A stretch of 64,000 nucleotides of DNA. Origin: Acinetobacter sp. NCu2D-2. GTDB taxonomy: Bacteria; Pseudomonadota; Gammaproteobacteria; Pseudomonadales; Moraxellaceae. This document shows positions 22,501 through 37,427 of this stretch, piece by piece (the stretch's first letter is position 1; each line of letters opens with the position of its first letter). The DNA lies in contig NZ_CP015594.1 of NCBI RefSeq assembly GCF_001647675.1, positions 1,612,001 to 1,676,000 on the forward strand. Direction: 5' to 3'. The notes under the pieces were generated by a model, which was given only the letters and a program-made list of their open reading frames with translations, did not search any database and was not told the origin of the DNA. Both the position numbers and the translations under genes were made by a program.

Positions 22501-22521
22501 TAAAAAAGCTCCTATATTAGG
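22501..22521 (+). terminator. Left half of a terminator split by the IS
   Basis: AAAAAAGCTCC plus the duplicated CCTATATTAGG. Joined to 23922-23930 it rebuilds a 13-bp stem AAAAAAGCTCCTA / TAGGAGCTTTTTT with a TAT loop, the bidirectional terminator between the acetyltransferase gene and ycaO. Confidence 0.88.
22511..22521. repeat. 11-bp target duplication CCTATATTAGG (left copy)
   Basis: Identical to 23911-23921 on the other side of the IS. The duplicated bases are the loop and the inner four base pairs of the host terminator, centred on its dyad. Confidence 0.93.
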
Positions 22522-22560
22522 TAATGCCAGTCAGTTAAGCAAAAAAAGTTAAAATACTGT

Positions 22561-22592
22561 AAAAAGAGCGTATGTAAATACGCTCTTTTTTT
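22561..22592 (+). terminator. IS-borne terminator-type hairpin before the transposase start
   Basis: Perfect 13-bp stem AAAAAGAGCGTAT-GTAA-ATACGCTCTTTTT followed by TT and then the ATG at 22593. It would stop read-through from the host gene upstream. Because no Shine-Dalgarno lies between hairpin and ATG, it would also limit transposase translation from outside transcripts. Confidence 0.8.
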
Positions 22593-23897
22593 ATGAATTT
22601 ATCTCAGAATTTAGATTTAACATTAAAACAAACCCTACCTTCACTTTCACAATTCAGTGAATTGATTGATTTAAACTGGATTGAAGATTGCTTAAACCAA
22701 ACAGGTAAAGCATCAATTCGAAAAAGAAAACTGCCTGCTGAACATGTTGTTTGGCTGGTAATCGGACTTGCTCTATTTCGAAATCAACCGATTTGGTATG
22801 TGGTTCAACAATTGCAACTTGTTTTCGGTACGGCAGAATACTGTGTACCGAGTGCATCCGTACAAGCAAGACAGCGCTTAGGCTTAGAGCCCATGAGTGC
22901 TTTATTTTCGACATTAAGTCAGGCATGGTTTAAAGACTCACAACAACAATATAGCAACTTTCACGGTCTATGCGTTTGTGCTGTAGATGGTGTGGTTTGG
23001 TCTATGCCTCATACAGAAGAAAACTTTAAGCACTTTGGTTCATCCAAAGGCAAAACAGCAGCTGCCCCTTACCCACAAGTCAGAGCGACTTGCCTGGTGA
23101 ATACCAATACACATGAAATGATTGATGCCCAAATTGGCAGTATGGATCAAGGTGAATTAACCTTAGCCAGTCAATTAAAAGCACCAGTTCGCAGTATTAC
23201 CCTATTTGATCGTGCTTACTTCTCTGCTGATTTTTTAGTGAGTTGGCAATCTCAGGCAGAAGAGAGTCATTGGTTGATGCGAGCAAAGGACAACCTGCGT
23301 TATGAAGTGATTCATCATAATGCGGCCCATGACTTTCAGATCAAAATGCCTGTTTCAGCAAGAGCAAAAAAGATAAATCCGTCATTGGGTGACTATTGGG
23401 AAGCACGTTTAATTGAAGTTGAATATGCAGGAAAAATAAGATGTTACATTACATCATTAACAGATTCTGAAGTTTATCCATTCAAAGACCTTGCAATGCT
23501 TTATATCCAGCGTTGGGAAATAGAAATGTGTTATCGGGAAATTAAAAGTGATTTACAGGATGCAAGAATTTTAAGAAGCAAACAACCTGATTTGGTCTAT
23601 CAAGAATTGTGGGGGGTATTTATTGCTTATAATATCTTAAGAAGACAGATGAGGTTTATCGCTGAACATGCAAAGGTGAGTCCTTTAAGGATCAGTTTCC
23701 ATATTGCATCTATGAGTATTATCAATATCTTAAGGCACACACCTTTAGAATCAGCAGGAAATCTACCCAAACATTTAGCACAATTATTTGAACAATCTAA
23801 AATATTTGTATTACCTGAAAAAAGGCAAAGGCAATGTCCGCGAGTAGTGAAAATTAAAGCACAAAAATATCCAAGAAAATGCCAGTCAATTTCTTAA
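22593..23897 (+). CDS. IS4-family transposase, copy 1
   Basis: A 434-residue IS4-type DDE transposase. An N-terminal DUF4372-like block (VVWLVIGLALFRNQPIWYVV) is followed by VCAVDGVVWSMPHTEENFKH (first D), SITLFDRAYFSADFLVSWQS (second D) and IQRWEIEMCYREIKSDLQDA (E, in the Y-(2)-R-(3)-E-(6)-K type signature). Full length, no frameshift. The start codon directly follows the hairpin T-tract with no visible ribosome site. Confidence 0.95.
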   Translation: MNLSQNLDLTLKQTLPSLSQFSELIDLNWIEDCLNQTGKASIRKRKLPAEHVVWLVIGLALFRNQPIWYVVQQLQLVFGTAEYCVPSASVQARQRLGLEPMSALFSTLSQAWFKDSQQQYSNFHGLCVCAVDGVVWSMPHTEENFKHFGSSKGKTAAAPYPQVRATCLVNTNTHEMIDAQIGSMDQGELTLASQLKAPVRSITLFDRAYFSADFLVSWQSQAEESHWLMRAKDNLRYEVIHHNAAHDFQIKMPVSARAKKINPSLGDYWEARLIEVEYAGKIRCYITSLTDSEVYPFKDLAMLYIQRWEIEMCYREIKSDLQDARILRSKQPDLVYQELWGVFIAYNILRRQMRFIAEHAKVSPLRISFHIASMSIINILRHTPLESAGNLPKHLAQLFEQSKIFVLPEKRQRQCPRVVKIKAQKYPRKCQSIS

Positions 23898-23910
23898 CTG
23901 ACTGGCATTA

Positions 23911-23930
23911 CCTATATTAGGAGCTTTTTT
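23911..23930. terminator. Right half of the split terminator
   Basis: Duplicated CCTATATTAGG plus AGCTTTTTT. For the minus-strand ycaO transcript only the shorter CCTA-TAT-TAGG stem remains, so ycaO termination is probably weakened. Confidence 0.8.
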
Positions 23931-23942
23931 CTGTTTCACGCT

Positions 23943-26144
23943 TTATTGTGCAGCGACAAATTTAGCACGAGCCGCATGTAGCTTTTTATAGCTTTCGATT
24001 AAACGAAGATGACGATCAAGCCCTTCAAGTTTCATACTGGTTTCAGTCAAACCATAGAATTTAATCGTTCCATCAACTGAACCCAATACGGCGTTCATAC
24101 GTTCATCACCAAACATACGGCGGAAGTTATGTTCGTAATCTTCAAGTTCCATCTCATCATCAAGCATGACTTCAAGTACCACGTTCATGCATTGATAGAA
24201 CAAGCCACGCTCAACGGTATTGGTATTAAACTGTAAGAATGCTTCAACTAAATCTTTGGCTTCTTCAAATTGCTTTAAAGCCACATAGATTAACAATTTA
24301 AGTTCAAGGATGGTGAGCTGTCCCCAAACGGTATTGTCATCAAATTCCACACCAATCAACGTTTTGATTTCGGTGTAATCATCTGAGTCACATTCTTCTA
24401 AACGTTCAACCAATGCTTTAAGTTGCTCGTCATTTAGACGGTGGATATTTAAGATATCTTCACGGTATAAAAGTGCTTTATTGGTATTATCCCAAACCAA
24501 GTCTTCAACTAAATAAATTTCTGAATAATCAGGCACTAAAATACGACAAGCTGTTGCACCAAGGTGTTTGTACACCGCCATGTACACTTCTTTACCCATG
24601 TCTTCAAGAATGCCGAACATCGCAGCAGCTTCATCCGCATTTGAGTTTTGACCATTGTTGGTGAAATCCCATTCCACAAACTCATAGTCAGACTTCGAGC
24701 TAAAGAAACGCCATGACACCACACCGCTTGAGTCAATAAAATGCTCAACAAAGTTATTTGGTTCAGTTACTGCATGTGAGCTAAACGTTGGTTTAGGCAA
24801 ATCATTCAGACCTTCAAAACTACGACCTTGTAAAAGTTCAGTTAAGCTACGTTCAAGTGCTACCTCAAAGTTAGGATGTGCACCGAATGAAGCGAATACA
24901 CCACCTGTACGTGGGTTCATTAAAGTCACACACATCACAGGGAATTGACCACCCAATGATGCATCTTTCACTAAGACTGGGAAACCTTGCTCTTCAAGCC
25001 CTTTGATGCCTTCAACAATTTTTGGATATTTTGCCAAAACAGATTCAGGTACATCTGGTAAGGTAATTTCACCTTCCAAAATTTCACGTTTCACTGCACG
25101 TTCAAAAATTTCAGACAAACACTGAACTTGAGCTTCTTCTAAGGTATTCCCTGCGCTCATACCATTAGAAAGATATAAGTTTTCAATCAAGTTTGATGGA
25201 AAATACACAGTTTCGCCATCAGACTGACGTACAAAGGGCAATGAACAAATACCGCGCTCAGTATTACCTGAGTTAGTGTCATATAAATGTGTACCTAACA
25301 ACTCTTCATCAGGGTCGTAAATTTCAAGTGTGTATTCATCTAGAATTTCTTCTGGCAATTCACCATTTGGACCCGGCTTAAACCATTTTTCATCTGGATA
25401 ATGCACAAAATCAGCATTGGCTAAATCTTCACCCCAGAATTGATCGTTATAGAAGAAGTTACAGTTTAGACGTTCAATAAATTCACCCAAAGCTGATGCC
25501 AAAGCACTTTCTTTGGTTGAACCTTTACCATTGGTGAAACACATTGGTGACTGCGCATCACGAATATGCAATGACCAGACATTTGGCACGATATTACGCC
25601 AAGACGCAATTTCAATCTTCATACCAAGACCTGCCAAAATCGCAGACATATTGGCAATGGTTTCTTCTAAAGGTAGATCTTTACCCGGAATAACCGTCTT
25701 GGTTTCAGAAGCCAATGAAGGAATCAGCAATGCTTGCGCATCAGCATCAATACTTTCAACTTCTTCAATGATAAATTCAGGACCGGTTTGAATCACTTTC
25801 TTAACCGTACAACGGTCAATCGAGCGCAGAATGCCCTGACGATCTTTTTCAGAAATATCAGCAGGCAATTCCACCTGAATTTTGAAAATTTGTTTATAGC
25901 GGTTTTCAGGGTCAACAATATTATTTTGCGAAAGACGAATATTGTCTGTCGGAATATCACGTGCCAAGCAATACACTTTTACAAAGTATGCAGCACACAA
26001 AGCTGAAGATGCTAAGAAATAATCGAATGGACCGGGAGCAGAACCATCACCTTTATAACGAATGGGTTGATCGGCAATGACGGTGAAATCATCGAACTTC
26101 GCTTCTTGGCGAAGATTATCGAGATAATTAACCTTAATTTCCAT
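23943..26144 (-). CDS. ycaO: OsmC-YcaO fusion protein
   Basis: A 733-residue two-domain protein. Residues 1-140 are an OsmC/Ohr-like domain with Cys50 (SSALCAAYF) and Cys112 (IDRCTVKK), the peroxide-type cysteine pair. Residues ~150-560 are a YcaO domain with ATP/Mg motifs GSTKESALASALGEFIERLN, EEAQVQCLSEIFERAVKREI and LERSLTELLQGRSFEGL, followed by a helical, TPR-like C-terminus. E. coli YcaO (586 residues) lacks OsmC and is linked to RimO-dependent beta-methylthiolation of ribosomal S12. The fusion suggests a thiol or peroxide role. No peptide-precursor gene is adjacent, so RiPP synthesis is unlikely. Confidence 0.93.
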   Translation of the reverse strand: MEIKVNYLDNLRQEAKFDDFTVIADQPIRYKGDGSAPGPFDYFLASSALCAAYFVKVYCLARDIPTDNIRLSQNNIVDPENRYKQIFKIQVELPADISEKDRQGILRSIDRCTVKKVIQTGPEFIIEEVESIDADAQALLIPSLASETKTVIPGKDLPLEETIANMSAILAGLGMKIEIASWRNIVPNVWSLHIRDAQSPMCFTNGKGSTKESALASALGEFIERLNCNFFYNDQFWGEDLANADFVHYPDEKWFKPGPNGELPEEILDEYTLEIYDPDEELLGTHLYDTNSGNTERGICSLPFVRQSDGETVYFPSNLIENLYLSNGMSAGNTLEEAQVQCLSEIFERAVKREILEGEITLPDVPESVLAKYPKIVEGIKGLEEQGFPVLVKDASLGGQFPVMCVTLMNPRTGGVFASFGAHPNFEVALERSLTELLQGRSFEGLNDLPKPTFSSHAVTEPNNFVEHFIDSSGVVSWRFFSSKSDYEFVEWDFTNNGQNSNADEAAAMFGILEDMGKEVYMAVYKHLGATACRILVPDYSEIYLVEDLVWDNTNKALLYREDILNIHRLNDEQLKALVERLEECDSDDYTEIKTLIGVEFDDNTVWGQLTILELKLLIYVALKQFEEAKDLVEAFLQFNTNTVERGLFYQCMNVVLEVMLDDEMELEDYEHNFRRMFGDERMNAVLGSVDGTIKFYGLTETSMKLEGLDRHLRLIESYKKLHAARAKFVAAQ

Positions 26145-26544
26145 GCGGGCACCTAATGTTCTTATGTGTCATTCAGGACAAATAAGTTTTTGAATCTAAA
26201 TATAAGCCGTATCACGGAGCAGAAATGACTTAAAAAATGAGGTTGGCTTATGCAGCAGACTATAAATACACATAGCCCTGCTTGAGCTGAATGCAGCTAT
26301 TATAGTGATATTTTATAGAAATGATAATGATGTCGCAGATTCAGAAAAGATGTGACTTTTTATACCCATGACTTTAGCCACATTTTTTAAGAATAATCTT
26401 TTCTCTAACTATGTATCATCTATATATAGTTATACAAATCCTATTTTCTAATGAGGATTGAGTACTCATACTTGTTGTATAACTTCTATATAGAAAACTA
26501 AAAATAAACACCGATCTTTCTTTGATCATTTATTTGTCTAAATC
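26145..26544. promoter_or_regulatory. Divergent intergenic region between ycaO and the exporter gene
   Basis: About 400 bp without a gene. A loose Fur-like segment AATGATAATGAT lies near 26320-26331 (core 9 bases match; the wider 19-bp match is poor). It is a weak suggestion only. Confidence 0.25.
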
Positions 26545-26792
26545 TTGAGATATGCTAAACTTCGCCCACTTTATACACCTACGCTTTGTCGTGGGTGTTA
26601 TTTTTTTAAATCTCCCTTTTTGAAATTAAATTGTTCAGTAGGCACAGCTTCTCCCAACTTTCGCTGTTGCACTTTATTTACTGCTTATTTTTTCAAATTT
26701 TTTGGAATCTCCTGTCCGTCAGGGGATTAGGCATTTTTTATTTCAAAATTTGACCTAAGGCTGACGGCAACGTATCGCTATAGTTGAAAATA
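26545..26792 (+). promoter_or_regulatory. Possible attenuating leader of the mdfA/craA-type exporter
   Basis: Two terminator-like hairpins lie in tandem. The first is ACACCTACG / CGTGGGTGT (26575-26583 with 26590-26598), with one wobble pair, then a run of seven T. The second is AATCTCCTG / CAGGGGATT (26706-26714 with 26720-26728), then six T at 26734-26739. A 61-codon frame starting at ATG 26545 crosses both and stops at TAG 26728-26730 within hairpin 2. Whether it is translated is unknown. The layout fits premature termination relieved by a signal, for example stalled ribosomes. Confidence 0.45.
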
Positions 26793-28025
26793 ATGTCTCA
26801 ACCTCAAATTTCTAAACTCACTTTAGGTGCGTTACTGTTCCCACTCGCACTTGTGTTATTCGAATTCGCTGTCTATCTCGGCAATGATCTCGTGCAACCC
26901 GCGATGTTAGGTGTTACTCGTGATTTTGGTGTCAGCAGTTCTTGGGCACCCTCTTCAATGTCTTTCTATTTGTTAGGTGGTGGCTGCTTGGCATGGCTCA
27001 TGGGTCCACTCTCTGACCGCATTGGCCGTAAGAAGGTCTTACTCACTGGCGCATTATTTTTTACTGCCATGTGCTTGTTGATTTTGTTCATGCCCAATAT
27101 TCAAAGCTTCCTCGGTGTTCGCTTTTTACAAGGTATTGGTTTAACTGTCATTAGCGCTGTAGGTTATGCGGCCATTCAGGAAAACTTTGAAGAGCGCACC
27201 GCAATTAAAGTTATGGCATTAATGGGTAATATGACATTAATGGCTCCTTTGCTTGGACCCGTCATTGGTGCATTTCTGATTGACCATATTTCATGGCATT
27301 GGGGCTTTATCGGTATTGCTGTGCTGTCTATGCTCGGTTGGCTGGGGCTTAAACTGGCTATGCCGAATGATCAGAAAGCCAATTTATCCACTGCACCAAT
27401 GGGTAATATGTGGGCTGACTTTAAAAAGGTGTATAGCAATAAACAATTTTTAGTCATGACCAGCGCACTTCCAATGGCATCACTGCCAATTATGATGTGG
27501 ATTGCGCTCTCACCTGTCATGTTGGTGGAGAAATTTGCTTTTACTGGTTTTGAATATGGCTTAGCTCAAATTCCTGTACTCGGCGCATTAATCCTTGGCA
27601 GTGTACTGCTGATGAAAATCGTGGATAAATATCCACTCGGACAAACCGTGCTCGTCGGTCTACCGATTATGTTGGTCGGTTCACTGGTGACTATTTCAGG
27701 ACTATTTGTTCCAGATTACTCAGTGTGGTTATTGATTATCGGGATGACGCTGATGAGTTTTGGTGAAGGGATCTGTTTCTCTGTGCTGTATCGTTTAGCC
27801 ATGATGTCATCTGATGTCTCTAAAGGGACGGTCGCATCTGCCATGTCAATGATGATGATGTTGATCTACTTCACCTTTCTTGAGATTTCACGTCATTTAT
27901 ATGAAGCATTCGATATGCTGGCATTCAGCTTATGTGGCTTAGTCTTGGTTCTCTTATGGTTTACCCTACCACGCAAAATGCTAAAACAGATTATGCAAAA
28001 GCGTAAGGAAAATAATGAATTCTAA
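26793..28025 (+). CDS. mdfA: MdfA/CraA-family multidrug (chloramphenicol) MFS exporter
   Basis: A 410-residue 12-helix proton antiporter of the DHA1 family. The N-terminal PLALVLFEFAVYLGNDLVQP holds the membrane-embedded acidic residue (E in FEF) and the D of GNDL typical of MdfA. Motif A GPLSDRIGRKKVLLTGALFF and motif C GNMTLMAPLLGPVIGAFLI are clear. It closely resembles the A. baumannii chloramphenicol exporter CraA as I remember it (SSWAPSSMSFYLLGG, VGYAAIQENFEER). ATG 26793 is chosen over an upstream TTG. An unusually long leader precedes it. Confidence 0.9.
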   Translation: MSQPQISKLTLGALLFPLALVLFEFAVYLGNDLVQPAMLGVTRDFGVSSSWAPSSMSFYLLGGGCLAWLMGPLSDRIGRKKVLLTGALFFTAMCLLILFMPNIQSFLGVRFLQGIGLTVISAVGYAAIQENFEERTAIKVMALMGNMTLMAPLLGPVIGAFLIDHISWHWGFIGIAVLSMLGWLGLKLAMPNDQKANLSTAPMGNMWADFKKVYSNKQFLVMTSALPMASLPIMMWIALSPVMLVEKFAFTGFEYGLAQIPVLGALILGSVLLMKIVDKYPLGQTVLVGLPIMLVGSLVTISGLFVPDYSVWLLIIGMTLMSFGEGICFSVLYRLAMMSSDVSKGTVASAMSMMMMLIYFTFLEISRHLYEAFDMLAFSLCGLVLVLLWFTLPRKMLKQIMQKRKENNEF

Positions 28026-28041
28026 ATAGAATAATTTTTTC

Positions 28042-28071
28042 AAAGCGAGCCAAATTTGAGCTCGCTTTTTT
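28042..28071 (+). terminator. Rho-independent terminator of the exporter gene
   Basis: AAAGCGAGC / GCTCGCTTT stem with a CAAATTTGA loop and T-run. Confidence 0.88.
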
Positions 28072-28194
28072 ATTGCCTAAAACTAGAAATGCTCACATTT
28101 CAGCTTAAGCAAGATTTGAAAAATGGGGAATAAAATAGATGCTTAAAAAATAGAAAATGAAAATTATTATATTTTAGTGTTATAGAATAAAAAA

Positions 28195-28270
28195 TGGTGC
28201 GCTCAGCGGGACTCGAACCCACGCCACAGGCTTCGGAGACCTGTACTCTATCCAGTTGAGCTATGAGCGC
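28195..28270 (-). tRNA. tRNA-Arg (anticodon CCG)
   Basis: On the minus strand: acceptor GCGCTCA pairs with TGAGCGC, D-arm AGCTCAACTGGATAGAGT, anticodon loop CTCCGAA (CCG), T-arm GTGGGTTCGAGTCCCGC, discriminator A and encoded CCA. Reads CGG arginine codons. Confidence 0.96.
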
Positions 28271-28279
28271 GCGACGCAC

Positions 28280-28307
28280 ATCATAACAAAAAAAAGCGCG
28301 AGGTAAA
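28280..28307 (-). promoter_or_regulatory. Promoter of tRNA-Arg
   Basis: TTTACC (28302-28307), 16-bp spacer, TATGAT (28280-28285), with a GC-rich GCGTCGCGC discriminator typical of stable-RNA genes under stringent control. Confidence 0.6.
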
Positions 28308-28449
28308 GCAACTATATATAAGTCTCTCAATTTACTGATTATGCTTTATACAATGTTGCAAATTTGGAACGCAGAATACCGAGTTAATCACTTGGATTAT
28401 CCAGCAAGATCACTCACAATATCTCAACTTTTCACCAATTGAGACATTC

Positions 28450-29385
28450 ATGACTGATGCATTGACATTAAGGGATTTGTCCAAAACCTATCGTAATGGT
28501 TTTCAAGCACTTAAAGGAATTAATCTGACTGTACCCGAAGGTGAATTTTATGCACTTTTAGGGCCAAATGGCGCGGGAAAATCCACTACAATCGGTATTA
28601 TCAGCTCATTAACAAAAAAATCGGGCGGAACGGTAGAAATATTTGGTCATAATCTAGACACTCAACCTTCTCTTGCAAAACAACATTTAGGGGTTGTACC
28701 GCAAGAATTCAACTTTGCCCAATTTGAAAAAACCTTTGATATTTTGGTGACTCAAGCTGGTTATTACGGCATTCCTAAAAAAATTGCGCAAGCACGTGCA
28801 GAAGAATACCTCACCAAGCTTGGTCTATGGGAAAAACGTAGTACGCAAGCACGTATGCTGTCAGGCGGGATGAAGCGTCGTCTAATGATCGCGCGTGCCA
28901 TGATGCATGAACCTAAGTTGCTCATTTTGGATGAGCCGACTGCGGGTGTAGATATTGAGCTACGTCGCTCAATGTGGGACTTCCTCAATGAGATGAATGA
29001 TAAAGGTACCTCTATCATTCTCACTACACACTATTTAGAAGAAGCAGAAATGCTCTGTCGTCGAATTGCAATTATAGACCGTGGTGTGATTAAAGAAGAT
29101 ACCACCATGAAAAACTTCCTCAATCAGCTCAATGAAGAATCGTTTATTTTAGATTTAGTTGATCCGATAGAACCGCTTAATATAGAAATTATTGGGGTTA
29201 AATTTAACTTGGTCGATCCCGTGACTTTAGAAGTAACTCTTGATAAAGCACACAGTATGAATGATCTGTTCCAATTGCTTGAATCGAAAAATATTCGTGT
29301 AAGTAGTATGCGTAACAAATCAAACCGTTTAGAAGAACTCTTTGTGAAAATGGTCGAAAAGAATCTTGATGGAGCGAGCGCATGA
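28450..29385 (+). CDS. yadG: ABC-2 type transporter ATP-binding protein (YadG-like)
   Basis: A 311-residue ABC ATPase. Walker A GPNGAGKST near residue 38, Q-loop PQEFNFAQFE, signature LSGGMKRRLMIARAMMHEP, Walker B LLILDEPTAGVD and H-loop ILTTHYLEEAEML are intact. The C-terminal ~90 residues form the regulatory extension seen in drug or polysaccharide ABC-2 exporters. It overlaps the permease gene by 4 nt (ATGA). Substrate unknown. Confidence 0.92.
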   Translation: MTDALTLRDLSKTYRNGFQALKGINLTVPEGEFYALLGPNGAGKSTTIGIISSLTKKSGGTVEIFGHNLDTQPSLAKQHLGVVPQEFNFAQFEKTFDILVTQAGYYGIPKKIAQARAEEYLTKLGLWEKRSTQARMLSGGMKRRLMIARAMMHEPKLLILDEPTAGVDIELRRSMWDFLNEMNDKGTSIILTTHYLEEAEMLCRRIAIIDRGVIKEDTTMKNFLNQLNEESFILDLVDPIEPLNIEIIGVKFNLVDPVTLEVTLDKAHSMNDLFQLLESKNIRVSSMRNKSNRLEELFVKMVEKNLDGASA

Positions 29386-30155
29386 ACTTCAATCAACTCT
29401 GCGTCGCTTTATATACCATCGTTTATAAAGAAGTCCGTCGCTTTATGCGAATTTGGCCACAAACGTTACTTCCACCAGCGATTACCATGAGTTTGTACTT
29501 CGTGATTTTCGGTAATTTGGTGGGTTCACGCATCGGTCAAATGGGCGGATTCAGCTATATGGAATTCATTGTTCCTGGCTTAATCATGATGGCGGTCATT
29601 ACCAACAGTTATGCCAATGTATCTTCAAGTTTCTTTAGTGCTAAATTCCAAAAAAGTATTGAAGAGTTGATCATGAGCCCTGTCCCCCTACATATTGTAC
29701 TGTGGGGCTTTGTACTAGGTGGATTATGTCGTGGTGTCTTAGTGGGTATTATTGTTAGTGCCATGAGTCTGTTTTTCTCAGATTTAAGCATTACCAATTG
29801 GTTTGTGACTATATATACCATTGTGATCACATCACTACTATTTTCATTAGGTGGCTTTATTAATGCAGTCTATGCAAAATCTTTTGATGATATTTCGATT
29901 ATCCCAACATTTGTTTTAACACCGCTGACTTATTTAGGTGGTGTATTTTATGCAATTTCAGCATTAAGCCCATTTTGGCAAAACTTATCTTTAATTAACC
30001 CGATTGTATATATGGTTAATGCGTTCCGTTTTGGCATCCTAGGTCATAGCGATGTCAACGTCACAATTTCATTAACTGTTATTACAATCTGCTGTGCCGT
30101 ACTTTATGGCGTGGCTTATCATTTACTCTCCCGTGGTTCAGGAATGCGTGAATAA
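29382..30155 (+). CDS. yadH: ABC-2 type transporter permease (YadH-like)
   Basis: A 257-residue membrane protein with six predicted helices and the ABC-2 signature region near FVLTPLTYLGGVFYAISALS. The N-terminus LYTIVYKEVRRFMRIWPQTL is the amphipathic connecting helix that contacts the ATPase. Translationally coupled on both sides: a 4-nt overlap with the ATPase gene and a 1-nt overlap (TAATG) with queF. Confidence 0.92.
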   Translation: MNFNQLCVALYTIVYKEVRRFMRIWPQTLLPPAITMSLYFVIFGNLVGSRIGQMGGFSYMEFIVPGLIMMAVITNSYANVSSSFFSAKFQKSIEELIMSPVPLHIVLWGFVLGGLCRGVLVGIIVSAMSLFFSDLSITNWFVTIYTIVITSLLFSLGGFINAVYAKSFDDISIIPTFVLTPLTYLGGVFYAISALSPFWQNLSLINPIVYMVNAFRFGILGHSDVNVTISLTVITICCAVLYGVAYHLLSRGSGMRE

Positions 30156-30970
30156 TGAGTGTAGAAAATTCTCTTCTTGGTAAAGATACCAACTACCCTA
30201 CTGAATATCAGCCTGATGTTCTATTTCCAATTTCACGTGCGCCTGCACGTGAAGCGTATGCTCATGTTGAAGGTATTCGACAAGGTAAAGACTGGTGGCA
30301 TGTTTTCGAAATTTCATGGCTTAATTTAGCCGGTGTACCTCAAGTTGCGATTGGTCGCATTACGCTTCCAGCATCTTCACCGAATTTAATCGAATCGAAA
30401 TCTCTAAAGCTCTACTTTAATAGTTTGAACTTTGCCAAATTCGAATCGAAAGAAGCATTTATTGCGACTGTTGAAAAAGATTTATCTAAAGCCGCTGAAG
30501 CAGAAATCAAATTGGATTTATTCCATGTTGATGATTTAGAGATTACAAAACCTGAAGGGATTTGTCTTGATGATTTGACACCTGAGCGTATTGAACATCA
30601 CCCTGATGCATCATTATTGGCTTTTGATTCAGCGAGCGATGAAGAAGTTGATGTTCAGTTATATTCACATCTGTTAAGAAGTAACTGTCCAGTCACTGGA
30701 CAACCGGACTGGGGTACAGTATTTATACGCTATCAAGGTAAAAAACCTTGTTATAAGAGTATTTTGGCTTATATTATTTCTTATCGTCAGCATAATGGTT
30801 TCCACGAGCAATGTGTGGAGCAGATTTTTGCCGATGTTTGGCAAAATCTACAACCAAAAAATCTGATGGTATATGCAACTTATACACGTCGTGGTGGATT
30901 GGATATTAATCCGTGCCGTGTATCAGACTTAACATGGATGCCTCGCCCTATTCGATTAGCGCGACAATAA
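30155..30970 (+). CDS. queF: NADPH-dependent 7-cyano-7-deazaguanine reductase
   Basis: A 271-residue long-form (two-domain, YqcD-like) QueF that reduces preQ0 to preQ1 in queuosine synthesis. The catalytic Cys lies in LLRSNCPVTGQPDWGTVFIR, with the substrate motif ESKSLKLYFNSLNFAKFES in the N-terminal half, and YIISYRQHNGFHEQCVEQIF. Overlap with the yadH-like gene makes it the third gene of this operon. The functional link to the exporter is not obvious. Confidence 0.96.
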   Translation: MSVENSLLGKDTNYPTEYQPDVLFPISRAPAREAYAHVEGIRQGKDWWHVFEISWLNLAGVPQVAIGRITLPASSPNLIESKSLKLYFNSLNFAKFESKEAFIATVEKDLSKAAEAEIKLDLFHVDDLEITKPEGICLDDLTPERIEHHPDASLLAFDSASDEEVDVQLYSHLLRSNCPVTGQPDWGTVFIRYQGKKPCYKSILAYIISYRQHNGFHEQCVEQIFADVWQNLQPKNLMVYATYTRRGGLDINPCRVSDLTWMPRPIRLARQ

Positions 30971-30988
30971 AAACATTGAGGTTTAACA

Positions 30989-31639
30989 ATGCCATTTTTC
31001 GGGTTTATTCCTTCTGCAGAGCTTTTAAATACAATTCAGACTGCACAACAAAACAAAAATTCGAGTGAACCACTGTATCCACTTCGAGATAAAACTGCAT
31101 TACTGATTAATGATGAGATTATTGATGCGATTTTGACTGAACTGGTACGACGTTTTCCACCAAGTGAAAAACGTGATACAGCAGAAAAATTGGCAGGTTA
31201 TATTAAATCCACCGTCGCAGTCTTACTCAAACAACTTTTGGGTAAGGCTTCGAACGATGTGGTACGCCAATCTATCGAATTTTCTGAAAAAAGCTTATTT
31301 AAAGATCCACAAGGTCAATATCGCGTCGGCGAACCTCTTGATGCCAATCTAGTCAGCAAACTCAAGCAAAACTATGCAGATTTAAGTGCAGGCAAAGAGA
31401 TTGATAAACAAGCCTTAAGTAACTTATATAAGCAATTTGGTGAAGCTACTGTTCGCCACTTTATGAGTGACTTTAATAAGACGCTTGATTTAGGCATGAT
31501 CAAACGTAAAGCTTCAGAATTGGGGGCATCTGCTGTCATTAAAGCAATTAATATTGCTGCAGATAAAATTATTTTGAATTTGACCAATGATGAACTCAAA
31601 GCGATGGCTGAATACCACGATACACTGTTCTATGTTTAA
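30989..31639 (+). CDS. Hypothetical soluble helical protein, 216 residues
   Basis: Unrecognised family. All-helical with no signal peptide or membrane segment; segments include DAILTELVRRFPPSEKRDTA and GKEIDKQALSNLYKQFGEAT. It follows queF by 18 bp, so it is the last gene of the yadG-yadH-queF unit and ends at a strong terminator. AACATTGAGG gives a ribosome site before the ATG. Confidence 0.7.
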   Translation: MPFFGFIPSAELLNTIQTAQQNKNSSEPLYPLRDKTALLINDEIIDAILTELVRRFPPSEKRDTAEKLAGYIKSTVAVLLKQLLGKASNDVVRQSIEFSEKSLFKDPQGQYRVGEPLDANLVSKLKQNYADLSAGKEIDKQALSNLYKQFGEATVRHFMSDFNKTLDLGMIKRKASELGASAVIKAINIAADKIILNLTNDELKAMAEYHDTLFYV

Positions 31640-31654
31640 TAAAAATTTCACTGA

Positions 31655-31682
31655 AAAAGCCTGAGATTACTCAGGCTTTTTT
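31655..31682 (+). terminator. Rho-independent terminator of the yadG-queF unit
   Basis: AAAAGCCTGAG / CTCAGGCTTTTTTT hairpin. Confidence 0.9.
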
Positions 31683-31908
31683 TATACCTAAATAATTTGT
31701 TACACATTTGATCAATTGGCTCTACTTTTTAAATCAATAAGCCCTATTCTTTGTCTTTTTTTGTATAGCTTTCTAGGTGCAATCTACCGACAGATGATAT
31801 CTTGACCATCTTAAAAATATTATCTAAATGCTTGATGTCATAATAGATCGAGCCATAGATAGTTTTCACCTAAGCACTATGTTGTATCTAATTTTTTTTG
31901 GAATTTGG

Positions 31909-32916
31909 ATGTTAATGTTGAACTCTCATTTTTATAAAAAACTAAAACAATTGAGCACCGCTGTCTTTGCAATCAGTTTGACCAGCTTTGCGCAAGCCAA
32001 CGATTTCCAAAATCACCCTTCATATGCCAATTTTAAGCAAAATACCATGAAGACTTATGGTCTGAGTGCGGAACAAATTGACTGGGCAATGAATGGCTCT
32101 AAAAATTTGCCTAATATTATTAATATTATGAATCGTCCAGGTGAAAGCAAACCTTGGTACAGCTATAAAACCAACTTCCTTTCAGAAGGCACGATTCAAC
32201 GCGGTGTGCGCTTTAAACAACAATATGCATCTACCCTACAACGTGCTGAGCAACAGTTTGGTGTACCCCAATCCATCATTTTAGGGATTTTGGGTGTAGA
32301 AACAGGTTTTGGCTCAAATAAAGGCTCATTTACTACACGCGATGCGCTTGCAACACTCGGTTTTAATGGTGACCGTCGCAATCAATATTTCCAAGATGAG
32401 TTATCTGCGCTTATTGCATGGTCGTATAAAGACGGTATTCCGACTTCTTCTGTCATCGGTTCTTATGCAGGTGCGGTCGGTTATCCGCAATTTATGCCAA
32501 GCAATATCACTAAGTTCGGTGTCGACTACGATGGTAACGGTCATATTGACCTTAGAAATTCAGCTGTAGATGCAATTGGTTCTATTGCAAATTATCTTGC
32601 TAATCATGGTTGGCAGCGCGATCAACCAATTGCATTTGCCGCAAGATACACCGGAAATAATCCCGATCAGATCATTGCCAAAGATCTTACTGCACCCATT
32701 CCATATGGCGCACTTAAAACACAAGGCATTAGCCCTTTAAATCCAATTGTGAAAATTGATGATTTAGACATGGTCAATGTCATTCAATTACAGGAAAATT
32801 ACGGTCCGATCTATTACCTGACATACCCGAATTTTCAGGTGATTACGACCTATAACAAGAGCCGAATGTATGCCACCGCATTGTGGCTTTTAGGTACAGA
32901 AATTACCAATCGTTAA
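31909..32916 (+). CDS. mltB: Membrane-bound lytic murein transglycosylase B
   Basis: A 335-residue MltB-type enzyme that cleaves peptidoglycan glycan strands to 1,6-anhydro products. A signal peptide ends at FAQA before NDFQNHP and has no lipobox Cys, so this is a soluble or loosely bound form. The catalytic Glu lies in ILGILGVETGFGSNKGSFTT; ALIAWSYKDGIPTSSVIGSY and AGAVGYPQFMPSNITKFGVD are family signatures. ATG 31909 is chosen because the upstream 27 codons would bury the signal peptide; ATG 31915 is also possible. Confidence 0.93.
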   Translation: MLMLNSHFYKKLKQLSTAVFAISLTSFAQANDFQNHPSYANFKQNTMKTYGLSAEQIDWAMNGSKNLPNIINIMNRPGESKPWYSYKTNFLSEGTIQRGVRFKQQYASTLQRAEQQFGVPQSIILGILGVETGFGSNKGSFTTRDALATLGFNGDRRNQYFQDELSALIAWSYKDGIPTSSVIGSYAGAVGYPQFMPSNITKFGVDYDGNGHIDLRNSAVDAIGSIANYLANHGWQRDQPIAFAARYTGNNPDQIIAKDLTAPIPYGALKTQGISPLNPIVKIDDLDMVNVIQLQENYGPIYYLTYPNFQVITTYNKSRMYATALWLLGTEITNR

Positions 32917-33204
32917 CATGAATTTTTCCTAATTCTCATAAAAGTCAAGAAATTTTTATGAGAATTAGTTCATATTTTGGACTTTTTACATACATTGTTA
33001 CAATTTTGATTATTTTTTAACCAATTATTGTTTATTTTCCGTACTTTTTGAAAGTATTTTAAGTAAAGACTAGACAGGGTATTGAGCGCATGAATATTAT
33101 CCATCTCGTCAAATGTAGTTGCATAAGTTAAATATCAGGCATGTTTATGTGGTTTTTCAGCTTGTTAGCTTCATCCATATGCCATGCTGTTAGGAGTTGA
33201 TTCG

Positions 33205-33819
33205 ATGCATTCTTCAATCTTAAAATATTTTATGGCCATCGCCACGACAGTCACTCTGACACAGTCGCAAGCGGACATGGTCCAATCATCATCGTTGAAT
33301 AACGATCATGATACTTCTCGTTTAGCAGCACGCTTGTTAAACAAAGAAGTTCAAAGCTTTAATTCAAACTTTACGAATTTAAGTAGCCTTTCAATCACTG
33401 AACGTTCCGGCGATAAAGTTCGTCGCGAAACGATTGCAGCAAAAATCGAAATCCCTGAAGAAGAGCCTTCAGTGATTGAAAAGCTGAACACCGTTGCCTC
33501 TAACACAGTTCGCAAATTCACTCAGTCTGGTACTGCTTCTTGGTATGGTCGTCAATTCCACGGTCGTAAAACAGCAAGCGGTGACACATTCGATATGAAT
33601 GGTTTAACTGCTGCTCACCGTAGCCTGCCTTTAAACTGTTACATTCGTGTGACCAACAAAACCAATGGTAAGAGTGTTGTCGTGAAAGTAAACGATCGTG
33701 GTCCTTTCCATGGTAATCGTGTACTCGACTTATCTTACGGTGCTGCGAAGCAAATTGGCTTAACTCACGCAGGTACAGGTAAAGTCAGTATCGAACGTGT
33801 AGATGGTCCACACTCTTAA
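33205..33819 (+). CDS. rlpA: RlpA-like double-psi beta-barrel septal protein
   Basis: A 204-residue exported protein: signal peptide to about SQADM, a variable linker, then the DPBB domain SGTASWYGRQFHGRKTASGD through VNDRGPFHGNRVLDLSYGAA and KQIGLTHAGTGKVSIERV. The Asp in VNDRGPF and the barrel His match lytic RlpA enzymes acting on denuded glycan at the septum. No lipobox Cys and no C-terminal SPOR domain, so it is the short type. ATG 33205 is preferred because it directly precedes the signal sequence. Confidence 0.88.
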   Translation: MHSSILKYFMAIATTVTLTQSQADMVQSSSLNNDHDTSRLAARLLNKEVQSFNSNFTNLSSLSITERSGDKVRRETIAAKIEIPEEEPSVIEKLNTVASNTVRKFTQSGTASWYGRQFHGRKTASGDTFDMNGLTAAHRSLPLNCYIRVTNKTNGKSVVVKVNDRGPFHGNRVLDLSYGAAKQIGLTHAGTGKVSIERVDGPHS

Positions 33820-33845
33820 TAACTTGTTGCACTATATTTGATCTG

Positions 33846-33873
33846 AAGCCACAATTTATTGTGGCTTTTTTAT
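33846..33873 (+). terminator. Rho-independent terminator of the rlpA-like gene
   Basis: AAGCCACAA-TTTA-TTGTGGCTT hairpin followed by TTTTT. Confidence 0.88.
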
Positions 33874-33884
33874 TGAGTATCATT

Positions 33885-33971
33885 TTGAAAAAATATGAAT
33901 TGATTTTTGCACTGTTACTTTTAGTGCTTTTCTTTTTACTCGTGCAATGGTCTTTCCATGGCTTTGCTTAG
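33885..33971 (+). CDS. Possible 28-residue single-helix membrane microprotein
   Basis: A TTG-initiated frame reads KKYELIFALLLLVLFFLLVQ and then WSFHGFA-stop. That is one near-perfect transmembrane helix with a basic N-terminus and an aromatic end. GAG lies 7 nt before the TTG. It sits right after the rlpA terminator and would need its own promoter, which I could not place. Too short to be sure. Confidence 0.35.
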   Translation: MKKYELIFALLLLVLFFLLVQWSFHGFA

Positions 33972-34057
33972 ATCTTTGCATCTACTCATTTTTGACCAAT
34001 TGTGATTTAAGATTTATATTTTCATTCATCAGCTTAAAACGACATGGATGAGGTCAA

Positions 34058-34516
34058 ATGAAAACAATCAGCGAATGGTTTGATGAATATAGTGAAAGTC
34101 ATCAAAACAAAACCAACAAAATGATTCATTGGGTATGTGTCCCTACCATTTATTTTTCGATCATAGGCGTCTTGGCACACTTTAGTGCACTACTCACTAC
34201 CCTCCTGCTCGTACTGTCTTTTATTTTTTATGCACGTTTGGACATTGTACTTGCAGTTGCTATGGCAGTTTTAACTCTGGTGATGGCATGGTTGATTTGG
34301 GTATTACCTGTGGGTGTTGGCTTCTATATCGGATTATTTGTTTGTGCTTGGATTGGTCAATTTTATGGACATAAAGTGGAAGGTAAAAAGCCATCTTTCT
34401 TTAAAGATCTCCAATTCCTCCTTATTGGCCCTATTTGGTGCCTTGATACCTTTATTGCTAAAGTACACCCATCTTGGAAAACTCGTCAAAATAACGCAAT
34501 TGAGAGCCATTTGTAG
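34058..34516 (+). CDS. Mpo1-like (DUF962) membrane protein
   Basis: A 152-residue protein with four hydrophobic segments and the DUF962 hallmarks: EWFDEYSESHQNKTNKMIHW near the N-terminus (His-rich turn), GQFYGHKVEGKKPSFFKDLQ in the middle and LIGPIWCLDTF at the end. The His residues in HQNKTNKMIHW and GHK match the iron-binding positions of yeast Mpo1, a 2-hydroxy fatty acid dioxygenase. Bacterial function is not established. Confidence 0.85.
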   Translation: MKTISEWFDEYSESHQNKTNKMIHWVCVPTIYFSIIGVLAHFSALLTTLLLVLSFIFYARLDIVLAVAMAVLTLVMAWLIWVLPVGVGFYIGLFVCAWIGQFYGHKVEGKKPSFFKDLQFLLIGPIWCLDTFIAKVHPSWKTRQNNAIESHL

Positions 34517-34546
34517 CATTCTCAAGTTTTAAGATTTGGAAGAACC

Positions 34547-35065
34547 TTATTGGTAGGTTCTTCCTTGATGTTTTAACCAACCATTAATATGTTTTCCAGC
34601 AGGATCATGGTGTGTCCAATGGATGACTCCACCCTTATCACTGTATTCATATTCACCATAAAATTCGACCGTATCGCCTTTTTGAATGGTGTCAATTCTC
34701 GGAGATAAATCAATATTATGTGCAACCAAAACGGTTTGACCATTATTCAGTTCTAAAATGAACTTCTGATGACGCGAGCCTTCATTGTCATCACGTAATA
34801 ACGCTACCACTCGTCCACTAGCTTTGACCTGTAAATCGCTTTGGTTGCGTGCAAATGCCTGTGCAATCTTATCGGTGTCATCCTTTTTGACGTCAGACGG
34901 CTTTTGCTGAGTTTGAGAATTTGATGCTGTGGAGTCCTGAGCTTGGGTTTCTATAGCCGTCGGTGTATTAACAGCTTGATTGTCTTGCTTAAGATCTATG
35001 CCAATATAGGCTGCTGCCAGCAAAGCAATTGCAGCGCCAATCGATATATTTGTTTTATTTGCCAT
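34547..35065 (-). CDS. DUF3465 exported OB-fold-like protein
   Basis: A 172-residue protein: N-terminal hydrophobic anchor (ISIGAAIALLAAAYIGIDL), a low-complexity Ser/Thr/Gln/Lys linker, then a beta-rich domain with ASGRVVALLRDDNEGSRHQK, VEFYGEYEYSDKGGVIHWTH and HDPAGKHINGWLKHQG. These match the DUF3465 family, of unknown function. The IS4-family copy 2 ends only 52 bp upstream of its ATG, so its promoter may have been altered. Confidence 0.83.
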   Translation of the reverse strand: MANKTNISIGAAIALLAAAYIGIDLKQDNQAVNTPTAIETQAQDSTASNSQTQQKPSDVKKDDTDKIAQAFARNQSDLQVKASGRVVALLRDDNEGSRHQKFILELNNGQTVLVAHNIDLSPRIDTIQKGDTVEFYGEYEYSDKGGVIHWTHHDPAGKHINGWLKHQGRTYQ

Positions 35066-35107
35066 AATTATTCCTTAACTTTGTTTTATTTTAACCATAA
35101 AAAAAGC

Positions 35108-35117
35108 CCCAAATGGG
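35108..35117. repeat. 10-bp target duplication CCCAAATGGG (left copy)
   Basis: Matches 36507-36516. The duplicated bases are the AAAT loop plus three base pairs of the tsf terminator stem, centred on its dyad. Together with the A-run before it this is also the distal terminator half. Confidence 0.93.
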
Positions 35118-35130
35118 TAATGCCAGTCAG

Positions 35131-36435
35131 TTAAGAAATTGACTGGCATTTTCTTGGATATTTTTGTGCTTTAATTTTCACTACTCGCGGACATTGCCTT
35201 TGCCTTTTTTCAGGTAATACAAATATTTTAGATTGTTCAAATAATTGTGCTAAATGTTTGGGTAGATTTCCTGCTGATTCTAAAGGTGTGTGCCTTAAGA
35301 TATTGATAATACTCATAGATGCAATATGGAAACTGATCCTTAAAGGACTCACCTTTGCATGTTCAGCGATAAACCTCATCTGTCTTCTTAAGATATTATA
35401 AGCAATAAATACCCCCCACAATTCTTGATAGACCAAATCAGGTTGTTTGCTTCTTAAAATTCTTGCATCCTGTAAATCACTTTTAATTTCCCGATAACAC
35501 ATTTCTATTTCCCAACGCTGGATATAAAGCATTGCAAGGTCTTTGAATGGATAAACTTCAGAATCTGTTAATGATGTAATGTAACGTCTTATTTTTCCTG
35601 CATATTCAACTTCAATTAAACGTGCTTCCCAATAGTCACCCAATGACGGATTTATCTTTTTTGCTCTTGCTGAAACAGGCATTTTGATCTGAAAGTCATG
35701 GGCCGCATTATGATGAATCACTTCATAACGCAGGTTGTCCTTTGCTCGCATCAACCAATGACTCTCTTCTGCCTGAGATTGCCAACTCACTAAAAAATCA
35801 GCAGAGAAGTAAGCACGATCAAATAGGGTAATACTGCGAACTGGTGCTTTTAATTGACTGGCTAAGGTTAATTCACCTTGATCCATACTGCCAATTTGGG
35901 CATCAATCATTTCATGTGTATTGGTATTCACCAGGCAAGTCGCTCTGACTTGTGGGTAAGGGGCAGCTGCTGTTTTGCCTTTGGATGAACCAAAGTGCTT
36001 AAAGTTTTCTTCTGTATGAGGCATAGACCAAACCACACCATCTACAGCACAAACGCATAGACCGTGAAAGTTGCTATATTGTTGTTGTGAGTCTTTAAAC
36101 CATGCCTGACTTAATGTCGAAAATAAAGCACTCATGGGCTCTAAGCCTAAGCGCTGTCTTGCTTGTACGGATGCACTCGGTACACAGTATTCTGCCGTAC
36201 CGAAAACAAGTTGCAATTGTTGAACCACATACCAAATCGGTTGATTTCGAAATAGAGCAAGTCCGATTACCAGCCAAACAACATGTTCAGCAGGCAGTTT
36301 TCTTTTTCGAATTGATGCTTTACCTGTTTGGTTTAAGCAATCTTCAATCCAGTTTAAATCAATCAATTCACTGAATTGTGAAAGTGAAGGTAGGGTTTGT
36401 TTTAATGTTAAATCTAAATTCTGAGATAAATTCAT
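35131..36435 (-). CDS. IS4-family transposase, copy 2
   Basis: 434 residues, identical to copy 1 except Arg for Cys in the AGKIRRYITSL segment, which lies between the second catalytic Asp and the Glu. All catalytic motifs are intact. Starts directly after the IS-borne hairpin, again without a Shine-Dalgarno. Confidence 0.95.
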   Translation of the reverse strand: MNLSQNLDLTLKQTLPSLSQFSELIDLNWIEDCLNQTGKASIRKRKLPAEHVVWLVIGLALFRNQPIWYVVQQLQLVFGTAEYCVPSASVQARQRLGLEPMSALFSTLSQAWFKDSQQQYSNFHGLCVCAVDGVVWSMPHTEENFKHFGSSKGKTAAAPYPQVRATCLVNTNTHEMIDAQIGSMDQGELTLASQLKAPVRSITLFDRAYFSADFLVSWQSQAEESHWLMRAKDNLRYEVIHHNAAHDFQIKMPVSARAKKINPSLGDYWEARLIEVEYAGKIRRYITSLTDSEVYPFKDLAMLYIQRWEIEMCYREIKSDLQDARILRSKQPDLVYQELWGVFIAYNILRRQMRFIAEHAKVSPLRISFHIASMSIINILRHTPLESAGNLPKHLAQLFEQSKIFVLPEKRQRQCPRVVKIKAQKYPRKCQSIS

Positions 36436-36467
36436 AAAAAAAGAGCGTATTTACATACGCTCTTTTT
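36436..36467 (-). terminator. IS-borne terminator-type hairpin, copy 2
   Basis: The same 13-bp stem as in copy 1 (36438-36450 with 36455-36467). Reading from tsf, it follows the broken host terminator by about 40 nt and has a T-run on the minus side, so it can replace the lost terminator. Confidence 0.8.
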
Positions 36468-36506
36468 ACAGTATTTTAACTTTTTTTGCTTAACTGACTG
36501 GCATTA

Positions 36507-36530
36507 CCCAAATGGGGCTTTTTTCTGCAA
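36507..36530 (-). terminator. Proximal half of the tsf terminator, split by the IS
   Basis: CCCAAATGGGGCTTTTTT on the plus strand. The uninterrupted form would have an 11-bp stem. After insertion only the three-pair CCC/GGG core is left on this side. Confidence 0.85.
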
Positions 36531-36551: not shown

Positions 36552-37427
36552 TTATTTAGCAGCAGCTTGAGCAGCAGCAACTTCTTCAGCGAAGCTCATT
36601 TCTGCTTTTTTCTCAATACCTTCACCAACTTCGAAACGAACGAAGTTAGCTACTGTAGTACCAGTTGCTTTAAGGATTTCAGCAACTTTTTTGTCGTTGT
36701 CGATTACGTATTGTTGACGTTCAAGAACAACTTCGTTCAAGTATTTCTCAACAGAACCTACAACCATTTTTTCAACGATGTTTGCTGGTTTGCCAGATTC
36801 AAGAGCTTTCGCTTCAGCGATTTCTTTTTCTTTAGCAACAAGTTCAGCAGGAACGTCTTCAGCTTTTACAGCAACTGGGTTGAACGCAGCAATGTGCATT
36901 GCCAAGCCTTTACCAGTTTCAGCATCACCAGCGTATGCAACAACAACACCGATTTTAAGACCGTGTTTGTAAACTGCAAGGTTTTCGCCTTCAACAATTT
37001 TCGCACGACGTACTTGGATGTTTTCACCGATTTTTTGAACAAGAGCAATACGAGTTTCTTCAACTGTAGCGCCATCTTCAAGTTTAAGTTCAGCGATTTT
37101 AGCAGCATCAGTTTCGCCAGCAGCAAGTGCAGCAGCAGCAACTTTAGCAGAGAAGCCAGCAAAGTTTTCGTCTTTAGCAACGAAGTCAGTTTGGCAGTTA
37201 ACTTCTAAAAGAAGTGCTTTGTTGCCGTCTTGAGCGATAGTGATCGCACCATCAGCAGCAATGTTACCTGCTTTTTTAGCAGCTTTAGCTTGACCAGATT
37301 TACGAAGGTTATCAATCGCTAATTCGATGTCACCACCAGCTTCTGTCAAAGCTTTTTTACATTCCATCATTGCAAGACCAGTACGATCACGCAATTCTTT
37401 AACCATGCTTGCTGTAACTGCAGTCAT
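36552..37427 (-). CDS. tsf: Elongation factor Ts
   Basis: A 291-residue nucleotide exchange factor for EF-Tu. The N-terminal UBA-like module [20 protein letters not shown] and the core [17 protein letters not shown] with the TDFV motif are invariant. Ribosome site AGGAGAT lies before ATG 37427. Second gene of the rpsB-tsf operon; its own terminator has been replaced by the IS. Confidence 0.98.

Follow-up and report, generated by a model that had tools for sequence, protein, structure and literature searches.

Insertion at terminators or palindromes is already known for several other mobile elements. Group IIC introns insert at Rho-independent terminators (PMC3522654); they differ in being retroelements that enter downstream of the stem-loop, off its dyad, via RNA pairing. 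The insertion sequences (ISs) ISRm22 and ISPsy8 target palindromes in repetitive extragenic palindromic (REP) elements, ISPsy8 on the symmetry axis (PMC1525189), but their target is one class of repeat sequence and not terminators in general. ISRm22 is assigned to the IS4 family, subgroup IS4Sa (PMC2266710). For IS1630 of Mycoplasma fermentans, terminator or palindrome targeting is known by the title of its report; its transposase is of the IS30 family, however, and its duplications in strain M64 measure 16, 23, 25 and 26 bp. Our subject is a 1389-bp insertion sequence of Acinetobacter sp. NCu2D-2, which occurs twice in the window, i.e., the whole analyzed stretch of 64,000 nucleotides (contig NZ_CP015594.1, positions 1,612,001 to 1,676,000), and which belongs to the IS4 subgroup of the IS4 family.

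For some members of this subgroup, De Palmenaer et al. (2008; PMC2266710) noted a "spectacular apparent insertion specificity in left and right target arms". The word "terminator" does not occur in the main text of that paper, and its passages relevant here state neither the nature of the targets nor inward terminators at the ends. Judged by titles and the beginnings of abstracts, the open-access literature searched gave no report of terminator targeting by IS4-subgroup elements; as subscription journals, ISfinder and figures lie outside this scope, such a report may exist.

The assignment of our element follows that description in several respects. The transposase is a single open reading frame (ORF) of 434 aa with the spacings Y(2)R(3)E(6)K and D(60-110)D(100-150)E given there for the family (PMC2266710); the YREK residues (Y304, R307, E311, K318) are invariant in 5 and in 17 aligned proteins, and the catalytic triad is D132-D206-E311. 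It matches PF13006, PF01609 and NF033592 (225 bits, cut-off 115). The subgroup end pattern -AATR--------WTW---- is present in TAATGCCAGTCAGTTAAG, and the duplications of 10-12 bp in all 14 copies of the host genome agree with the 10-13 bp of the subgroup. Only the length falls 11 bp short of the typical 1400-1650 bp (the 39 element types introduced below span 1389-1447 bp), a size range that we do not treat as defining. The predicted fold (mean pLDDT 80) has Tn5 transposase complexes as its best solved matches (Foldseek E 3.8e-9, TM 0.47); sequence searches against Pfam, Rfam and solved structures yielded nothing beyond the family name.

We propose, as the likely reading of these sequences, a DDE element of the IS4 subgroup that moves by cut and paste. 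Its transposase would pick short bidirectional terminators via their paired tracts, and its ends would replace the terminator that is lost.

Insertion on the dyad of terminator hairpins

A DNA search of the host genome found 14 full-length copies, all flanked by exact duplications and all placed on the dyad of a terminator-like hairpin. Nine lie between convergent and five between tandem ORFs (at least 80 aa, near each side). The original prediction, which knew the two window copies only, had called their position hard to ascribe to chance, and the complete set of genome copies bears this out. The least typical copy (L008) lies in a palindromic repeat-like element, CACCCTTTAAAAAGGG...CCCTTTTTTAAAGGGTG, which resembles a dispersed repeat and not a gene-end terminator.

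To widen the comparison, relatives were collected from other genomes. They occur in 16 of 175 genomes of the genus, the own included (at most 10 candidates were scored per genome, and copies in the other genomes thus are a sample), with about 59% identity in a second genus (family search), and in 9 of the 398 genomes of a phylum sample. A contig scan (best 80 of 506) added Acidovorax, Limnohabitans, Comamonas, Massilia, Psychromonas, Colwellia, Shewanella, Pseudoalteromonas, Vibrio, Kluyvera, Pseudomonas, and others; E. coli IS4 sites were taken from MG1655 plus other strains. Ends were called from the terminal repeats plus the target duplication. A first set of 90 loci gave 75 with duplication, 3 duplicates, 7 without duplication and 5 partial copies, a second set of 100 loci gave 53, 16, 18 and 13, respectively. 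One of the 53 (L281) was removed due to wrongly called ends; we also excluded partial copies, copies lacking a duplication, and duplicates such as L225 of Psychrobacter lutiphocae, whose locus is that of L098. The final 133 sites comprise 75 from Acinetobacter/Psychrobacter, 52 from the wide set and 6 from E. coli. By BLAST grouping they represent 44 element types at 95%, 39 at 90% and 34 at 80% identity, of which we used the 39.

A site was counted as hairpin-centered when a predicted fold with a stem of at least 5 pairs had its center within 1 nt of the center of the duplication. This holds for 129 of the 133 sites (75/75, 50/52 and 4/6 in the three groups), compared with 403/3000 random positions, 353/3000 intergenic positions and 2/11 insertions of IS5-family elements. 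Mean fold energies are -16.7 (Acinetobacter/Psychrobacter), -17.6 (wide) and -14.1 kcal/mol (E. coli) versus -5.5 kcal/mol for intergenic positions. Dyad and duplication center coincide in 98 sites and are at most 0.5 nt apart in 126, and the parity of the duplication agrees with that of the loop (Fisher p 1.5e-11). Sites off the exact dyad may roughly be accounted for by chance one-base extensions of the duplications. Under a strict definition of a terminator, 14 of the 133 sites fail. As far as sequence can tell, IS4-subgroup elements including E. coli IS4 insert almost only at the exact middle of terminators. The outcome against which the original prediction had to be checked, namely that most other insertions lie outside hairpins or off the dyad, did not occur.

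At first sight, the data could also be explained by random insertion with survival of harmless intergenic insertions only, since most sites appear intergenic; 18 empty sites were called inside frames of at least 100 codons, many in G+C-rich hosts, whose genomes often contain spurious frames. However, selection of this kind is ruled out by centering at the level of single nucleotides, and IS5-family elements of the same genus are not placed in this way (2/11 on the loose hairpin test, none a terminator by eye; a small control, with ends found for 11 of 50 loci). We therefore give random insertion practically no weight. On the same control, the idea that terminator targeting is a general property of ISs in these genomes was rejected.

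Other subgroups of the IS4 family were reached by a search with NF033592, which returned mostly such elements (ends CACTA... and GAATGGCAC...). Six types with credible ends provided 7 sites (L105, L127, L106, L111, L112, L115, L133), none of which is a terminator target by eye; L118 and L124 have doubtful ends, and the remaining loci tried gave none. One of these elements (L133, ends GAATGGCACTTACT) carries a weak inward hairpin with a T-run at its right end, and its one readable target is not a terminator. In a tree of 40 transposases against 10 outgroups from other IS4-family subgroups, branches are long, and a single origin of terminator targeting is neither shown nor excluded by it.

Paired tracts at the target and inward hairpins at the ends

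The targets share a symmetric motif, AAA-N4-(mostly 10-14 bp)-N4-TTT, or in fuller form AAA(A/G)-N3-(mostly 10-14 bp, duplicated)-N3-(C/T)TTT in either orientation, which we refer to as the bracket. When half-sites are aligned at the edge of the duplication, they read AAAA(A/G)(C/G)(C/G), with A at positions -7, -6 and -5 in 93, 96 and 96% of the half-sites (133 sites). This contradicts the original prediction insofar as it had named hairpin symmetry, and not a sequence motif, as the shared feature. Duplications, which are 8-14 bp long as called in the wider set, track the spacing from A-tract to T-tract (rho 0.56, 122 sites), and the distances from edge to tract are equal on the left and right in 87 of these 122. 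Because of this correlation and this equality, each side apparently fixes its own joining point, in the manner of a symmetric dimer. At a duplication length of 12 bp, the site reads AAA-N20-TTT, which is the classical target consensus of E. coli IS4. The target motif of IS231A, GGG-N5-CCC, differs from the bracket.

E. coli IS4, for which an insertion in the pheST attenuator is known, resembles our element in its transposase (36% identical), terminal repeat, and inward hairpins at both ends. The 19 loci read, out of 5360 places of IS4 in E. coli, represent 11 distinct sites; 8 of these are centered terminator-like hairpins, some with a good T-run on one strand only. The other three (L135, L137, L312) keep the bracket without a centered hairpin, and two of them lie inside genes, so that E. 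coli IS4 is looser than the Acinetobacter elements. L137 is located in an oxidoreductase gene adjoining paaF, presumably paaE, and L312 in yicI, with a weak hairpin (-5.7 kcal/mol) 2 nt off center; both fit the bracket and do not look like terminators. The third of these is the IS4 site of MG1655 (AAACACCAGAACCAAGATGCCTATTT), again with tracts and no centered hairpin. The bracket is also kept without a centered hairpin in Vibrio (L289), Acidovorax (L256), and L095, a broken copy whose duplication was called by eye.

The elements themselves carry hairpins that point inward. All 39 element types have a hairpin plus T-run at the left end, followed within 16 nt by an ATG in 31 types. At the right end, 35 types have an inward hairpin on the antisense strand, which in 33 types is formed by the terminal repeat paired with an internal copy of itself. 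Other groupings give the same picture, with the left hairpin in all types and the right one in 40/44 (95% identity) and 30/34 (80% identity). The left stems are entirely different in sequence from clade to clade (GAGCGTATG..., TCCGATG..., GGGAACGTG..., CGGATTCACG...). Random windows of the host genome pass the left criterion in 118/500 (170 nt) and the right criterion in 31/500 cases (75 nt), decreasing to 59/500 and 10/500 at a dG of -8.8 or lower. Among five IS5 copies there are 2 weak left and 0 right hairpins, and six outgroups from elsewhere in the IS4 family have 1 on the left and 2 on the right. Both end hairpins of the window copy were recovered by an independent repeat search as well. 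Read in this way, insertion appears to exchange one host terminator for two, and low transposase expression is probably a further effect of the left hairpin.

How the target may be chosen

As the original prediction had suggested, the transposase might recognize the palindrome as such, in the form of an extruded cruciform or a hairpin. The centering reported above speaks for this, and so do the cut positions, which follow the dyad. For a comparison, 151 intergenic terminators were collected strand-wise from 400 kb of the host genome, defined regardless of a 5' A-tract, and set against 117 strand-wise target records of the Acinetobacter/Psychrobacter set (nearby species are included, and the targets thus do not stem from one genome). 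The stability of the hairpins does not differ (median -10.3 kcal/mol for targets vs. -10.2 for background, p 0.67). What does differ are the tracts and the span: tracts on both sides, with an A-run of at least 3, occur in 98% of the targets and 77% of the background (p 1e-7), A-tracts are longer in the targets, and a span of at most 20 nt is found in 108/117 vs. 89/151 (p 3e-10). Long stems are thus underused, with a span above 20 nt in 9/117 vs. 62/151. An element reading cruciforms would prefer more stable or longer palindromes; here, overall stability does not differ and spans are shorter, although a comparison limited to bracket-fitting sites, given below, has a weak contrary sign. The six sites that keep the bracket without a centered hairpin (L135, L137, L312, L289, L256, L095) likewise speak against palindrome reading. 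Hence, of the original suggestion, terminator targeting on the dyad beyond chance stands, and the cruciform or palindrome reading is disfavored; we regard it as unlikely.

Trained on 66 Acinetobacter targets, a model restricted to the outer nine bases was scanned over the same 400 kb and found 65 sites with a score of at least 14, 53 of them intergenic. The inner arms pair in 43 of these 53 and in 43 of 59 targets that reach the same score, and for this reason no extra demand for a hairpin is seen; however, since just 6 of the 65 sites (3 of the 53 intergenic ones) are without inner pairing and also without a fold below -8 kcal/mol, this test of availability is a weak one. At the level of sequence, the bracket is specific enough to explain target choice without any reading of the hairpin, and a symmetric reader of A/T tracts appears to fit better than recognition of a cruciform or of a terminator complex.

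The latter would mean coupling to transcription, with the transposase meeting RNA polymerase paused at a terminator, an R-loop, or terminator RNA. The targets indeed are functional-looking terminators, and 69 of 118 resolved sites (132 analyzed, 14 unresolved) lie between convergent ORFs. Yet orientation is not biased: among the 133 sites, the T-run is longer in 48, the A-run in 47, and both are equal in 38, and at tandem ORFs 18 insertions are co-oriented vs. 26 counter-oriented (p 0.29). Moreover, terminators with a long span or without a 5' A-tract are underused, and the two intragenic E. coli sites fit the bracket and not a terminator. In our view, such coupling is very improbable.

Several observations weigh against tract reading as we propose it. 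The bracket was scored on the same sites from which it was learned. Only 5 of 138 sites (the 133 plus 5 more from E. coli), plus L095, lack a hairpin centered within 1 nt, and since almost every target is a hairpin, the two features are difficult to tell apart; one of the five, L312, has the weak off-center hairpin mentioned above. None of the 66 Acinetobacter targets is without a hairpin, while about 3 might be expected from the 3/53 intergenic bracket sites that have none. A logistic model that takes span into account gives stability a positive coefficient (0.57), and when only terminators fitting the bracket are compared, the targets have a small edge in stability (p 0.053). Regarding the ends, 4 of the 39 types have no right-end hairpin by the criterion used, in another 2 the terminal repeat does not form it, and the left hairpin may serve control of the transposase and the right one its binding.

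In the tract-reading mechanism that we favor, a two-fold symmetric transposase complex would read an A-tract at each side, probably by recognizing how the tract is shaped or bends, together with the G/C pairs next to it, and the element ends would be joined 4 bp inside each tract. On this view, terminators would be targeted as the principal location of paired tracts, with no need for a hairpin to form. Transcripts entering from either host flank would then end at the end hairpins within about 70-100 nt, and as a consequence the lost host terminator would be replaced, transposase expression would stay low, and the insertion would be nearly neutral. Dyad insertion at bracket sites is seen in Acinetobacter, other Beta- and Gammaproteobacteria, and E. 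coli IS4. With somewhat greater reserve, we suppose that the IS4 subgroup is a lineage-wide class of terminator-exchanging elements across Proteobacteria, reading paired A-tracts and insulating both neighbors by inward terminators; the AAA-N20-TTT consensus would be a shadow of this.

If this holds true, it would provide a defined target for the element that names the IS4 family and explain the specificity noted in 2008. It would also show how a simple insertion sequence with a single gene can avoid harm and may spread at little cost to the host. Such an element would be a natural inserter at safe sites, and its rule, namely a set spacing between paired A-tracts, would predict the landing places of such elements in new genomes.

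The two window copies and other individual loci

The features of both window copies are compiled in the following table.

Features of the two IS copies in the window (window coordinates; dG, folding energy)
Feature	Position	Strand	Details
IS copy 1 (IS4 family, IS4 subgroup)	22522-23910	+	1389 bp; ends TAATGCCAGTCAGTTAAG / CTTAACTGACTGGCATTA
Transposase of copy 1	22593-23897	+	434 aa; D132, D206, E311; YREK = Y304-R307-E311-K318
Left target duplication of copy 1, CCTATATTAGG	22511-22521	.	AAAAAAGCT (22502-22510) just before
Right target duplication of copy 1, CCTATATTAGG	23911-23921	.	then AGCTTTTTT (23922-23930)
Inward left-end terminator-like hairpin, copy 1	22566-22592	+	GAGCGTATGTAAATACGCTC + T7; dG -10.8; abuts transposase ATG
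Inward right-end terminator-like hairpin, copy 1	23871-23907	-	antisense to transposase gene; dG -17.0; terminal-repeat hairpin TGCCAGTCA...TGACTGGCA + TTTTCTT
IS copy 2	35118-36506	-	1389 bp
Transposase of copy 2	35131-36435	-	434 aa
Target duplication of copy 2, CCCAAATGGG	35108-35117	.	A7 run + GC (35099-35107) just before
Other target duplication of copy 2, CCCAAATGGG	36507-36516	.	then GCTTTTTT (36517-36524)
Inward left-end hairpin, copy 2	36436-36462	-	faces transcription arriving from tsf
Inward right-end hairpin, copy 2	35121-35157	+	
tsf	36552-37427	-	TIGR00116; copy 2 target terminator is downstream of tsf

The copies differ at 1 of 1389 positions. Their locations and exact duplications are as originally described, centered on the hairpins AAAAAAGCT-CCTATATTAGG-AGCTTTTTT (copy 1) and AAAAAAAGC-CCCAAATGGG-GCTTTTTT (copy 2); the arms AAAAAAGC...GCTTTTTT are common to both targets. 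The comparison with empty sites in related strains, which had been proposed together with the original prediction, was carried out for copy 2. A search in 41 Acinetobacter genomes (own included) gave 30 loci downstream of tsf, i.e., our own, which holds the IS, and 29 relatives. IS ends are absent downstream of tsf in all 29 relatives, and 28 show an intact hairpin flanked by A-tract and T-tract, the T-run of the 29th (L345) being interrupted. Given these 28 intact hairpins without an IS, the terminator most likely predates the insertion. The core GCCCCAAATGGGGC is identical in three relatives (L325, L327, L338).

Together with its 5' A-tract, the left-end hairpin of the element (22561-22592 and 36436-36467) itself fits the target motif, with a score of 16.9 that exceeds 13 of the 66 real targets. 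No nested insertion was noticed among the 133 sites, which may reflect self-avoidance or chance. Besides the two copies, the window encodes an IS5-family transposase (2476-3405; NF033579) of a type with further copies in the genome; where insertion sites of such elements could be read, they are not terminators.

Some terminators have been used repeatedly. Those between bamD and raiA (L139, L141, L314, L317) and between tdk and adhE (L318, L322, L323) recur as IS4 sites across E. coli strains, the latter occupied in both orientations (L318 vs. L322 and L323); both belong to the 8 hairpin-centered sites of E. coli IS4. Flanking letters are shared by L032, L048 and L041 from three genomes, the IS of L041 being 76% identical, and by window copy 1 and L092. 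By eye, these are apparently independent hits on the same terminator.

Copies without a duplication still show the tract at 38 of 39 junctions (L030/L212 and L036/L217 are the same copies counted twice); for comparison, a T-run of 3 occurs in 1697 of 5000 random 17-nt windows. We take copies with mixed terminator halves as a sign of recombination between copies, and on the proposed reading terminators would become recombination points in hosts with many copies. Terminator halves are present on both sides of L030, L034, L035, L036, L048, and others, and in L030 and L035 the two halves clearly come from two different terminators.

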